From Desulfatiglans anilini DSM 4660 (GTDB taxonomy: Bacteria; Desulfobacterota; DSM-4660; Desulfatiglandales; Desulfatiglandaceae), in NCBI RefSeq assembly GCF_000422285.1, contig NZ_AULM01000022.1:1-64000 (forward strand): a DNA stretch of 64,000 nucleotides. Reading direction: 5' to 3'. Of the stretch, positions 1-8,866 are shown piece after piece; position 1 is the stretch's first letter, and each line of letters begins with the position of its first letter. The notes below the pieces were generated by a model that did no database searches, was not told the DNA's origin, and saw only the letters and a list, made by a program, of their open reading frames with translations. The position numbers and the translations under genes were made by a program.

Positions 1-812
1 TCGATGTCTTCGAACTTGAATGCGGTGATGGAACCAGGGAGTTGATAGTTGCCGAACTGGACGGTGGCGTCTTGTTCTGACTGGAGGGTGATGTTCTGGC
101 AGACGCTGGTGGAAGCGGCCCATCCGGACTGCAGGGTTTCCTTGACGGAGTACTCGCCTGGAGTGAGGTTGTCAAAGAGGGCGTTGCCGCTGGTGTCGGT
201 ATTGGCAGGGGATCCGATCTCCTCGCCGCTCTGGCAGTTGGAGCCGGAGTAGAGGGTCATTTCCCAGCCGGAAAGGGGATCCTCGTCGGTGCCCTGGATC
301 TTGTCCTGATCGATGTCTTCGAACTTGAATGCGGTGATGGAACCAGGGACATAGCAATCGGGTCCGGTAATTAAATCAGTTGAAATCACTTCATCAGAGG
401 TAGAAGCTTTTGCATAAACATAAAGTGAATTGCTTTTTACCGGATATAAGTTATCGAGTGTAAAACAAACAGTTCTTATTTCATTATCGTCATAACCTTC
501 ATCAAATTTAATGCCATTTTTAACATCCCATTCGGGTTTATCATCAGCTTGGAGAACATTCTTTTCACTAAAGCAATCTGGCAAAATCAAAACCCAATGG
601 CTGAGCGATGGCTTTTCGCCGGATGTAACTTCATAACACCAAGTCGACGTTTTAGATTCATAGTTGTAAGTCACACCAATATACTTAAAAGTATGTGTGC
701 TGGTCCCATTAGATCCCGTGGTGGATATTTCTATTTTATCGTGTGCGTTGGCGATAGAAAAAGAGAGACATACAATAAAAAACAGACCACAACCAAGAAA
801 ACGATTTTTCAT
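1..812 (-). CDS. Secreted surface protein with SdrD/Cna-B-like repeats (3' end outside window)
   Basis: The frame is open from ATG at 812 to the window edge, so at least 270 codons are visible. AAGGAG lies 7 nt upstream of the ATG. Residues 1-23 form a signal peptide (MKNRFLGCGLFFIVCLSFS, then IANA and cleavage). About 130 residues of an AT-rich, unrecognised domain with several Cys follow. Then comes a 103-residue unit that begins PGSITAFKFEDID and contains DNLTPGEYSVKE, typical of SdrD-B/Cna-B (prealbumin-like) domains. A second unit starts at the edge. The first 40 nt of the two units (1-40 and 310-349) are identical, so the array was amplified recently. The gene lies downstream of two c-di-GMP-I riboswitches, consistent with an adhesin. 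No C-terminal anchor can be seen. Exact function is unknown. Confidence 0.8.
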   Translation of the reverse strand, partial: MKNRFLGCGLFFIVCLSFSIANAHDKIEISTTGSNGTSTHTFKYIGVTYNYESKTSTWCYEVTSGEKPSLSHWVLILPDCFSEKNVLQADDKPEWDVKNGIKFDEGYDDNEIRTVCFTLDNLYPVKSNSLYVYAKASTSDEVISTDLITGPDCYVPGSITAFKFEDIDQDKIQGTDEDPLSGWEMTLYSGSNCQSGEEIGSPANTDTSGNALFDNLTPGEYSVKETLQSGWAASTSVCQNITLQSEQDATVQFGNYQLPGSITAFKFEDI

Positions 813-996
813 TGCTTTTCTCCTTAAATGATAACAGATGTAAATTTAATGTCTGTTTTAGGGCCAACTGTGAAATGTCTCATCTAAAATTAAATCTCCA
901 GTTGTAATCCTGGTCAGCGGATGGTGTTTGATGTCAAATTTTGAGAAATAGATGGTTTTCGCGAATTTTGTTCGATATTTCAAACGCTTATGTCAT

Positions 997-1046
997 AAAA
1001 AATGACAGCCGGACTACCTGAAGGATTCAGGCAGTCCGGCTGTCAT
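997..1046 (-). terminator. Intrinsic terminator of the proximal c-di-GMP-I riboswitch
   Basis: On the minus strand a 20-bp stem (1046-1027 with 1021-1002) has one G-U wobble and a 5-nt loop, and is followed by six T. The wobble is stable only in RNA read from the minus strand. The 5' arm is also the 3' part of the aptamer, so a folded aptamer and this terminator exclude each other. This suggests ligand-ON control of the gene at 812. Confidence 0.8.
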
Positions 1047-1100
1047 TTTCAGACCCGTGACTTTCCGCCCCCTCCTTACGAAGGGTTTGGCCTTTACTGA
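1026..1100 (-). ncRNA. c-di-GMP-I (GEMM) riboswitch, proximal copy
   Basis: Read on the minus strand the segment holds the GEMM-I landmarks in order: GGCCAAACC, a small CCTT/AAGG hairpin, GGGGCGGAAAG, TCACGGGTCT, a short loop, then GACAGCCGGACTGCC. The conserved AAACC and GAAAG segments and the ACGGGTCT/AGCCGG pairing match the family. By-eye alignment to the Vibrio Vc2 aptamer keeps G at position 20 and A at 47, which favours c-di-GMP over cGAMP. The aptamer merges into the terminator at 997-1046. Confidence 0.85.
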
Positions 1101-1213
1101 AATCCAGCGACTACGATTCTTGGACTAGCGATAGACCATCAAGCAAAGATCAAGCTTGATAACTGTTGAATATAAATTAAGGATATTAAAAATACAGGCT
1201 GACTTAGCCAACG

Positions 1214-1249
1214 AAAAAGCCGGATTGCCCCCTAGTAGGCAACCCGGCT
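1214..1249 (-). terminator. Intrinsic terminator of the distal c-di-GMP-I riboswitch
   Basis: On the minus strand AGCCGGGTTGCC (1249-1238) pairs with GGCAATCCGGCT (1229-1218). The stem has 12 bp with one G-U, the loop is 8 nt, and five T follow. The 5' arm overlaps the aptamer's 3' strand, as in the proximal unit. Confidence 0.75.
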
Positions 1250-1305
1250 GTCTTCGAGAGATCCGTGGCTTTCCGTCCCCATCTCGCGATGGGTTTGGCT
1301 TTTCT
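1229..1305 (-). ncRNA. c-di-GMP-I (GEMM) riboswitch, distal copy
   Basis: The minus strand reads AAAAGCCAAACC, the hairpin CCATC-GCGA-GATGG, GGACGGAAAGCC, ACGGATCTCTCGAAGAC, AGCCGGGTTGCC. This is close to the usual deltaproteobacterial GEMM-I pattern. As in the proximal copy, the pair normally G21-C46 appears as C21-G46. It is in tandem with the 1026-1100 copy and about 130 nt upstream of it. The presumed promoter lies above 1310, where TACAAT is visible but no convincing -35. Confidence 0.85.
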
Positions 1306-2367
1306 AGTGATGAGTATTGTACGCCGAACCTTTAAGTTAGAACTTTAGTATATTTATATGGAGCTGTTTCTAGGATGTCAAGTAATAAAATGCAGGAGTT
1401 TGAACGGGATGATTTAAGCCCTTATGGGAAGGGCAGGATCCATATGTCAATGTCCGTAAAATTTTGTGCATACATGACAGCAATCAATGATACGGTTGTA
1501 GAAATTATTTCTGATAGCTTTCTATTAAAAATAAAATTATGACATCATATTTTGCTTTATTTATAATTTGTTTTTAATGATATGATATTTGTACGATTTC
1601 ATTTTATAGCAAAATGGATGCTATTTTTTTTATTGAATTAAATTATAGCAGTCATAGAATTTTGAAAATTAGCATTTATATGCAACATATCAGAAAAATT
1701 AAATTTTTTAATTGGATTGATATATGTTTTACTGCGTAAAATATTTGTTGAATATAAATAAATATCGCTTCCTTTTATGCAAAAATTCATTTTATTTTGT
1801 TGATATTTACAAGTTATAAATCAAAAAATAAGTCATTACTATACGAGTGAATTTTATAGTTTGATTCAAAATTGGACGCTAAATCACGGCATGGCTTTTT
1901 TCTTATTCTTTGAATAGAAGAAAATTATGCTAATGTGATAATTATGAAAAGCGAGGTTATATTGCCTCATTTTCATATATGAGGGATCATTCAATTACAT
2001 GAAAGATATGTGGATTACAATAATGTCACTAAGGTGAAAATAGATGTGGATCATCACTTGCTGATCAACATCTGTGCATAAATGAAAAACTGCCGATTCG
2101 GAGTACGCTTGATTTTCCCACCAAGTTTTTGAACCGATAGGCAAACAACAACAGGGCTGGTTTATTTCATTTTCATGATTGCTTGCATGATATGGGATTA
2201 GCCGGTAAACGGATTTTTCAGAATGGCCAGGCACGCAAATTGCTCGCTTGCAAGGGTGATGAGTTGGAAGCGCGTTAAGTTTCATTCGCCCTGTTTCTGG
2301 CTCTTTAGGCCTGGTGAAAGGGCCGGGAGAAGAAAAGTCAACGGCTGGACAATAGCGGGCAAGGGAT
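1306..2367. other. AT-rich intergenic stretch
   Basis: This stretch of about 1 kb is much richer in A and T than most of the window and has many stop codons in all frames. I see no supported gene, CRISPR array or tRNA. It probably contains the promoter for the riboswitch-controlled transcript running toward lower coordinates. With the AT-rich N-terminal part of the surface protein it suggests horizontally acquired DNA. Confidence 0.5.
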
Positions 2368-2820
2368 ATGACAGAAAAATGCCGGATAAAGATCAGTTTG
2401 ACCGATCTCGACCGCGAGCGGTTAAATCGGTGGTTGCAGTCGAGCAAGGCTTCGAAGCGGGTAGCGGCCCGGGCTCGCATCATACTGGATTTCGACCGGG
2501 GCAAACCGGCAGCTGAAGTGGCGGATTCACTCGGTGTAAGTGTCGCTCTGGTCTACCGTTGGGTGAGTCGGTACAGGGAAAAAGGCCTCGATGGTCTGCG
2601 GGATTTTCCCAGATCCGGGCGACCCTCCAAATTGAGTGAACAAGAAGTCGAAGGCTTGGTCCGCTCTGCGATGAAAAAATCACCCTCCCATAGAGGCCCG
2701 TGGAGCATCCGGTCGGTTGCGCGGGAGGCGGGAGTAAGCAAATGGCAGGTCGAAAAGATTTGGAAAAAAAGCTGGTCGCGCGCGCAGTCCACGAAATCAG
2801 TGGGGTCCGGCGCTTCCTGA
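2368..2820 (+). pseudogene. Truncated IS630-family transposase (N-terminal DNA-binding part)
   Basis: The first ~135 residues match the double helix-turn-helix start of IS630/Tc1-mariner-type transposases. They include RVAARARIILDFDRGKPAAE, ADSLGVSVALVYRWVSRYRE, GLDGLRDFPRSGRPSKLS and a second HTH REAGVSKWQVEKIWKK. Full-length proteins are around 340 residues and carry a DDE catalytic domain. Here the similarity stops near 2775 and the frame ends at 2820, so no catalytic domain is present. No terminal inverted repeats were identified. It is a dead insertion-sequence remnant, or less likely a stand-alone HTH regulator derived from one. Confidence 0.7.
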
Positions 2821-6874: not shown

Positions 6875-6985
6875 GGTGCCAAGAAGGCACCCTCCCCTGG
6901 AATTCAACCGATTGTTAGGATTAAAGAACGGCCACGAAGGCCTGGATCGCCAAGGGCGGTCCATGTGCGCTTCGTGGCTTTTTTT
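6875..6985 (+). promoter_or_regulatory. Structured leader ending in a terminator-like hairpin (possible attenuator)
   Basis: A hairpin GGTGCC/GGCACC (6875-6891) is followed by about 40 nt of unstructured sequence. The outer stem GCCACGAAG/CTTCGTGGC (6931-6939 with 6970-6978) then encloses a nested GGATCGCC-AAG-GGCGGTCC hairpin and is followed by seven T. The U-G pair in the nested hairpin fits the plus strand. Because a promoter lies just upstream and the gene begins 120 nt downstream, it may be a conditional terminator. No named riboswitch family was recognised. Confidence 0.5.
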
Positions 6986-7105
6986 GTTTCGGCGCCTTTC
7001 GAGGGGTCGATGGTTCATACGAGGCATTGGTTTTACCCGATGAGCAATCCCGTGCATGGAACGGCTGAGGGTTGGGCCTCAGCGCGAATCCGGGTTCCAG
7101 GATTC

Positions 7106-8866
7106 ATGAAGGAATCCGATGCGGTTCCCGGCTGGAAATGGACCACCCTTTTGGCAGCGGTATGCGCCTTTGTCTGGCTGGTTTTATCTGCAGGGCCTTG
7201 GGTCGGTGAAACCTACGGCGCGGAGCGGGTAGTCCGGCAGGATGCGGACGGCGATGGGCGGATCGACCGTGTTGCCCATCTGGATGCATCCGGCAACGTC
7301 GTCTTGCTTGAAGTGGACATCGACGGGGACGAATTCTTCGAAACCCGGCAAGTCTATGAAAAGAGCGTTTTGGTGCGTATCGAAAAAGACACGGACCGGA
7401 ATGGGAAACCCGACGAGACCCACTTTTTCGAGAACGGGAAGCGGGTGCGCCAGGAAAAAACCGGTTCGAAGGGGCGGATAACGGACGTCGTTCTCTTCGA
7501 CCAGGAGGAGAGGCCTTTGCGCTGGGAGCGCGATACGACCGGCGATGGGCGCATGGATACGATCTCTGAGTACCGGGAAGGCAAGATTCAGCGGATTACG
7601 CGGGATACGACCGGTGACGGCCGGGTGAACGTCTGGCAGGACTTTCAGAACGAACAGCCCAAAGAGCAGCGCACGGACCGTGACGGCGATGGCCGCCTGG
7701 ATCAGGTGGTCACCTATGACAGACAGGGTCAGCCTGAAAAAAGCCTGCATGATTCGGACGGCGACGGGCGGATGGAAACCGTCCGGTTCTACCGCAAGGG
7801 CGAACTCGTCCGGCAGGAGGTGGATGCGGACGGCGTCCCTCCGCCTGAGCGGATCGTGGAATACAGCGGCGGTCAACCTGTGCTGGACAGGCAGGATACG
7901 AACGGGGACGGCCGCTACGATGCGGAGCTGAAATTCAAGGATGGGAAGCCCGCCTACCGCGAGGAGGATTCCGATCATGACGGGAAGATGGACCGGTTCA
8001 CCGAATTCGACGCCGCCGGCCGGCCGCTGGTGGTGAGGGAAGAAGGCCGCACCACCCGTTTTCTCAAGGGCGAAATCCTCAGCGTCGAGGAGACCGGAAA
8101 GGGACGAACCATCCTCACGGAATACGAGGGCGGTCAACCTGTGCGTCAGACGGTCGACGAGGACGGGAACGGCCACCCCGAGCAGACGATCCACTTCGAT
8201 CGGGAAGGCCGCATCGCCAGGGCCGAACGGGACACGAACCTGGACGGCCGGCCGGACACGTGGGAAAGGTATCAAGCGGGGGTTTTGATCCGAACGGAGC
8301 AGGACCGGAACCATGACGGAAAGATCGATGCAGAGACGGTGTATGTGAAGGGGAACCGGTCCCGGATTTCACTGGATACGGACCATGACGGACGCTTCGA
8401 AACCACGCAGCGGTTCGATCATGCTGAATGGTCCATGGTGACGGAGGTGGACCGGGACGGCGATGGTCAACCCGAAGAGCGCTACGCCTACTCGGAGGAT
8501 GTCCTGCGGCTGAAGACGCTGTTCGAAAAGGGCGCCGACAGCCCGGTCTTCGAGGAGGCCTACGACGAGCAGGGGCGCGTGGTGTGGTCGCGAGAGGCCC
8601 TCTCGGGTGGCACGGGTGCAACGCTGACCTGGCGTTTCGATGAAGACGAAAAGGCCGTCGAGGCCGAGAAGGATTCGGATGGGGATGGCCGAACCGATGT
8701 CTGGTTCCATTACAGCCCGGAGGGGCGCATCGAACGGGTGGCCGAAGACAGGAACCGGGACGGGAAAGCGGACCTCTGGGAGGAGTACGATGCCTCCGAG
8801 GCGGTGGTTTCGCGCAGTGAAGATCTCGATTTCGACGGTGTCGCCGACATCGAGAAGACTTTCTAG
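7106..8866 (+). CDS. Exported Ca-binding-repeat (DxDGDGxxD) protein
   Basis: This 586-residue protein has an N-terminal hydrophobic segment (about residues 10-32, TLLAAVCAFVWLVLSAG) that acts as a signal peptide or anchor. After it come roughly twenty imperfect repeats of 21-24 residues. Each has an acidic loop such as RDGDGRLD, DSDGDGRMET or DTNGDGRYD, then an aromatic/glycine strand (xxYxxGxxx). The loops resemble calcium-binding EF-hand/dockerin/thrombospondin-3 turns. A longer frame opens at 6965, but that start lies inside the terminator hairpin, so ATG 7106 is preferred. It is followed at 35 nt by exbB, so it probably works with the TonB system in the periplasm or at the outer membrane. 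No enzymatic domain was recognised. Confidence 0.75.
   Translation: MKESDAVPGWKWTTLLAAVCAFVWLVLSAGPWVGETYGAERVVRQDADGDGRIDRVAHLDASGNVVLLEVDIDGDEFFETRQVYEKSVLVRIEKDTDRNGKPDETHFFENGKRVRQEKTGSKGRITDVVLFDQEERPLRWERDTTGDGRMDTISEYREGKIQRITRDTTGDGRVNVWQDFQNEQPKEQRTDRDGDGRLDQVVTYDRQGQPEKSLHDSDGDGRMETVRFYRKGELVRQEVDADGVPPPERIVEYSGGQPVLDRQDTNGDGRYDAELKFKDGKPAYREEDSDHDGKMDRFTEFDAAGRPLVVREEGRTTRFLKGEILSVEETGKGRTILTEYEGGQPVRQTVDEDGNGHPEQTIHFDREGRIARAERDTNLDGRPDTWERYQAGVLIRTEQDRNHDGKIDAETVYVKGNRSRISLDTDHDGRFETTQRFDHAEWSMVTEVDRDGDGQPEERYAYSEDVLRLKTLFEKGADSPVFEEAYDEQGRVVWSREALSGGTGATLTWRFDEDEKAVEAEKDSDGDGRTDVWFHYSPEGRIERVAEDRNRDGKADLWEEYDASEAVVSRSEDLDFDGVADIEKTF

Follow-up and report, generated by a model that had tools for sequence, protein, structure and literature searches.

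Why would a gene for an adhesin-like protein be preceded by two riboswitches of the same class, and do both of them act on it? In the 64,000-nt stretch of Desulfatiglans anilini DSM 4660 analysed here (the window), an initial annotation had placed two c-di-GMP-I (GEMM-I) riboswitches on the minus strand ahead of such a gene and proposed that both are ON switches. Tandem c-di-GMP-I riboswitches form the largest tandem class, with 347 doublets and 12 triplets, and have been termed pseudo-cooperative (PMC9481103), while c-di-GMP tandems are enriched in Thermodesulfobacteriota (PMC12452182). Hundreds of bacterial genes are already known to have this arrangement, and the window locus is a further example. 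Our analysis favours the reading that two serial c-di-GMP-I ON riboswitches control the adhesin-like gene, as proposed, with a probability of about 0.83.

Results

The whole 64-kb window was compared with Rfam using cmscan and gave three matches, two of which were the tandem c-di-GMP-I units. The distal (first transcribed) aptamer at 1234..1308 (−) matched RF03167 with 65.1 bits (E = 4.2e-13) and RF01051 with 62.1 bits, and the proximal aptamer at 1026..1100 (−) matched the same models with 72.9 bits (E = 2.3e-15) and 67.2 bits, respectively. With gathering cut-offs of 59 for RF03167 (c-di-GMP-I-GGC) and 35 for RF01051 (c-di-GMP-I, GEMM-I), both units passed both models, RF03167 being the best-scoring model and RF01051 the general family. 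The two minus-strand GEMM-I aptamers of the initial annotation were therefore recovered by the Infernal search with RF01051 that it had recommended, and its extent of 997-1305 contains real units, but the distal aptamer extends to 1308/1309 and not to 1305. Low-scoring miRNA and sRNA matches in Rfam were dismissed as hairpin artefacts.

Position equivalents to Vc2 were mapped by hand, with position 20 assigned by eye, giving G20 = 1299, G46 = 1273, A47 = 1272 and C92 = 1239 in the distal aptamer and G20 = 1091, G46 = 1065, A47 = 1064 and C92 = 1031 in the proximal one. At position 37 of the RF03167 model, which aligns with A47 and has a consensus G, both units carry A, and this difference from the consensus residue places both of them in the parent family and not in the GGC variant. 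The model pair 11/36 is C-G in both units, where the consensus is G-C. The locus thus consists of two complete switches of one class on the same strand, with a separate platform for each and no ORF between them; the spacer from the distal terminator to the proximal aptamer is about 115 nt on the minus strand, and a search for minus-strand ORFs of at least 60 aa between the units found none.

Each aptamer is followed by a strong hairpin and a U run. The distal terminator (1214..1249 (−), −23.9 kcal/mol) comprises a hairpin at 1249-1218 and five U at 1218-1214, and the aptamer 3′ strand supplies its 5′ arm, AGCCGGGTTGCC. The proximal terminator (997..1049 (−), −40.8 kcal/mol) comprises a hairpin at 1047-1001 and six U at 1002-997, again with the aptamer 3′ strand as its 5′ arm. 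Both arms span the C92 equivalents, in agreement with the earlier claim that each unit has its own terminator built on the 3′ strand of its aptamer. Terminator-like sites were well beyond shuffled expectation (8 observed, 1.2 ± 1.1 in shuffles), and when the downstream sequence was shuffled, the observed energy of the overlapping hairpin was matched in 0/300 cases for the proximal unit and 1/300 for the distal unit.

Folds of the growing transcript, which are equilibrium single-sequence predictions of a decision that is itself kinetic, gave the aptamer-kept fold an energy 5–7 kcal/mol higher than that of the optimal fold at the point where the aptamer was just complete, and 21–26 (distal) or 34–39 kcal/mol (proximal) higher once the terminator arm was transcribed. 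The fold with the aptamer kept, which had been suggested as a check, was thus 21–39 kcal/mol worse after that arm had emerged. Judged from the shared strand and this energy gap, the predicted aptamer and terminator folds are mutually exclusive in both units, a situation also described for the pilM ON switch (PMC9262584); ligand binding should therefore keep the terminator from forming, in a decision that is expected to be kinetic.

The relation between aptamer and platform was also compared among relatives, where 77 class-I units of the family were divided into two subtypes by the pair at 21/46 and counted if they had a clear terminator. An overlapping platform was present in 29/31 units with C21-G46, the subtype found in the window, and in 3/20 units with C46, most of which carry a distinct hairpin that begins downstream of the aptamer; several of the automatic overlap calls in this sample contain a nested separate hairpin. 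In 84 further units from the order and phylum, overlap was found in 31/33 G46 units versus 5/19 C46 units, some C46 units with overlapping terminators being the exceptions. Fisher tests of subtype against platform gave p = 1e-8 and 6e-7, values that overstate the association because the units are related by descent. The 12-bp overlap helix was paired in 91.7% of cells over 19 sequences, compared with at most 48% when slid, and contained 10 double-changed cells versus 4.0 expected (0/500 shuffles). The counts from the two samples suggest that aptamer subtype largely predicts platform in the phylum, with C21-G46 units mostly overlapping and ON and G21-C46 units mostly carrying a separate terminator, and the association may simply be shared descent. 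Such a rule would aid the annotation of many riboswitches; it was absent from the open-licence literature consulted on these riboswitches, which was not searched for it by name. By eye, the C46 units of the family precede flagellar, PilM-like and PilC-like genes, among others. Two C21-G46 units of one relative (L179 and L180, G081) have a terminator that starts 11 nt past the aptamer, and its 5′ arm looks like a copied aptamer 3′ strand (ACCGGACTACC) that may provide an additional strand for switching.

A sigma-70-like promoter (TTGACA-17-TATAAA, 1353..1381 (−)) lies directly ahead of the distal unit with a predicted start near 1346; it agrees with the consensus at 11/12 positions, which is a match and not a proof of function. 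On the other side of the units, a leader of about 185 nt, close to the roughly 190 nt first given, separates the last terminator U (997) from the ATG (812); it includes a ribosome-binding site AAGGAG (820..825 (−)) placed 7 nt upstream of the start codon. This leader had no unusual structure (z = −0.10), so translational control there is not supported. The region upstream of the riboswitches (1350-2100) is very AT-rich (19–30% GC) beside genes with 55–60% GC, and is followed at 2368-2820 (+) by a helix-turn-helix transposase-like ORF; the two together are possibly an insertion or acquired segment. Elsewhere in the window, 6965-8866 (+) encodes a 633-aa secreted-looking protein with many acidic DxDxDG-type calcium-binding-like repeats and only weak Pfam matches.

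The adhesin-like frame (3..812 (−)) encodes a signal-like N terminus, a 148-aa region with no Pfam match, an SdrD_B/SpaA-like repeat and the start of a second one, in line with the secreted SdrD-B-like repeat protein described at the outset. The frame runs off the contig start and is incomplete in the contig, and its N terminus had no relative in a genome-collection search or in 60 related genomes, so that these searches gave no orthologous loci for comparison. Most relatives of a nearby window protein belong to Desulfobacterales-type Deltaproteobacteria, which gives an approximate placement of the host. Another contig (C3:3-1460) opens with a 91% identical repeat. The repeat lies in a frame of 486 aa that contains four SdrD_B domains and, at its C terminus, a motif resembling IPTL-CTERM, which scored 30.9 bits with TIGR04174 (cut-off 20.5) and 17.4 with Pfam PF18203, below that model's cut-off of 20.8. 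Because near-identical repeats stand at the ends of these two contigs (C20 and C3), the C3 frame is most likely the rest of the adhesin-like gene, split by its repeats in the assembly. The genome encodes the cognate exosortase XrtH (90.9 bits, cut-off 86), by which the protein is probably sorted, and a role in adhesion is predicted from its domains.

A second tandem pair of the same subtype is present on contig C58 of the same genome, with the units 244 nt apart and overlapping terminators, and precedes a gene for an SdrD_B/DUF7507 protein. The C58-type pair is conserved in a congener (G001) ahead of a complete 2132-aa gene, also with IPTL-CTERM. The best-scoring unit of this congener (G001:142894) was rejected as a single-copy orthologue, since it precedes an unrelated 337-aa protein. 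Identities between the two loci were 0.69 for proximal-proximal and 0.67 for distal-distal units, compared with 0.59 and 0.53 within each pair. As units in like position are closest to each other, the tandem probably predates the separation of the two loci, and the positions have since been distinct; this age is read from pairwise identities because a tree of the short units was weakly supported. The C58 terminators differ little (−19.2 and −22.4 kcal/mol), whereas in the window the distal one is clearly weaker.

Discussion

Under the favoured reading, transcription of the adhesin-like gene would start from the promoter at about 1381-1353, and the nascent leader would meet two independent c-di-GMP-I riboswitches serially. 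In each unit the aptamer would fold first. With c-di-GMP bound, the 3′ strand containing C92 would be held in the aptamer and the polymerase would read on, while with no ligand the emerging 3′ arm would capture this strand, the terminator would form and transcription would stop. Full-length mRNA would be made only with both gates open, giving low basal expression and a modestly steeper response. A high level of c-di-GMP would turn on production of a large surface protein with SdrD_B repeats, which XrtH probably sorts. In a lineage that is known chiefly through metagenomes, the locus would connect c-di-GMP with an SdrD_B-repeat surface protein for which sorting by an exosortase is predicted.

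What a second gate adds was estimated with a model of two identical, independent gates for one ligand. EC90/EC10 fell from 81 to 40, so that the effective Hill slope reached no more than 1.19, while multiplication of the leak turned 20-fold induction into about 400-fold. The main gain expected from the tandem in this model is a tight OFF state with less leak, which agrees with the doublets measured in Bacillus thuringiensis, where Bc4-5 had a background of 0.070 and 28-fold induction and the singles had 0.168-0.342 and 11–13-fold (PMC4759541). The sharper response to c-di-GMP anticipated earlier would accordingly be modest at most, with a Hill slope up to about 1.2 in the model. The term AND gate was overstated, since a single ligand gives no logic AND, and the units are better called a pseudo-cooperative pair (term from PMC9481103).

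Several other explanations bear on ligand, sign and order. Class-I riboswitches contact their ligand through G20, A47 and C92 (PMC4744006); all three are present in both window units according to the mapping on Vc2, so c-di-GMP is the likely ligand of both. That the units sense 3′,3′-cGAMP, or both dinucleotides, is quite unlikely: the C21-G46 scaffold also carries A20 units in the same genome and in relatives, but cGAMP-type variants carry a single pocket change (PMC9481103), recognition of cGAMP has been linked to G20A (PMC6274999), and A20, the mark of the cGAMP riboswitch (GEMM-Ib), is absent from both window units, which carry G20. Moreover, Desulfobacca acetoxidans aptamers lacking the cGAMP-type pocket change preferred c-di-GMP in in-line probing (PMC9481103). 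It is extremely improbable that the hairpins work as OFF switches or terminate constitutively. A terminator that follows a class-I aptamer can act as an OFF platform, and the C46 units of the family mostly have separate ones; in both window units, however, the strand with C92 is common to aptamer and terminator, which makes binding and termination incompatible. The ON sign is further supported by the conserved overlap among relatives, and it is from this and the anatomy that we infer the response itself. A promoter between or after the units could bypass one or both switches and take them out of series. Weak promoter-like matches (9/12) do occur at 1211-1185, 917-889, 874-844 and 855-828, but such matches were no commoner than in shuffles (7 found, 6.7 expected), and the 11/12 match with 17-nt spacing stands directly ahead of the first unit, which leaves this bypass improbable and a single transcript through both units the expected case.

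Two further explanations concern the roles of the two gates. The window's distal terminator is the weaker one (−23.9 vs −40.8 kcal/mol), and in C58 the distal terminator stem includes several G-U pairs and its U run is short, as might be expected if only the strong proximal gate mattered, the distal gate being a weak or decaying remnant and the tandem a by-product of duplication. This appears unlikely, since the distal unit passes the Rfam cut-off with all ligand contacts kept, its terminator arm pairs 12/12 in both loci despite sequence change, and the greater likeness of like-position units between loci than within them argues that both were kept for long. The gates could also be non-redundant, with separate identities since before the locus duplication and a different ligand preference or affinity, making a true two-input or staged gate for the exosortase-sorted adhesin. 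This is very doubtful; its basis is the order of a weak first and a strong second terminator, together with the use of the same scaffold by A20 units in relatives. If true, the pair would integrate c-di-GMP with cGAMP or compute with two thresholds. With its two related tandem loci, the genome offers a test case for why tandem switches are kept.

The pair of serial ON switches favoured here shows no essential difference from published tandem c-di-GMP-I riboswitches, which likewise have two complete class-I units on the same strand with their own terminators and no ORF separating them, and which occur in the same phylum-level group; the window locus has no individual description in the cited papers. 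The triple tandem Bc3-5 of Bacillus thuringiensis (PMC4759541) is likewise a series of class-I switches with an output that increases with c-di-GMP, and its doublets showed less leak and more induction than singles as measured there, but it has three units, belongs to another phylum and lies upstream of cspABCDE. Vc1 ahead of gbpA in Vibrio cholerae (PMC4744006) is also a class-I riboswitch through which c-di-GMP raises expression of a secreted attachment protein, although it is a single unit and the protein is unrelated. In Paraclostridium, c-di-GMP-II riboswitches stand in tandem ahead of a gene for a surface-anchor protein (COG4932; PMC9481103); they similarly combine tandem c-di-GMP sensors with a surface protein, but belong to an unrelated aptamer class (II) in Gram-positive hosts. 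The pilM riboswitch of Geobacter metallireducens (PMC9262584) shares the ON platform, its terminator capturing the strand of the aptamer that holds the ligand-pairing C (C75 in that RNA), and differs in being a single unit that binds cGAMP ahead of a pilus gene.

The same genome also contains a class-I unit that carries the cGAMP-type change A20 (C34:14036-14162, L047), ahead of a 667-aa secreted protein without a Pfam match, and similar A20 units were seen in two relatives (G061 and G005); both dinucleotides may be in use in this genome. The G46 units of the family were seen by eye to precede mostly secreted proteins. Genes after several G46 units (L099 on G026:C64, L091 on G005:C8 and L100 on G026:C345) carry PEP-CTERM signals with TIGR02595 above cut-off, and these endings suggest that such riboswitches are associated more widely with exosortase-sorted proteins.
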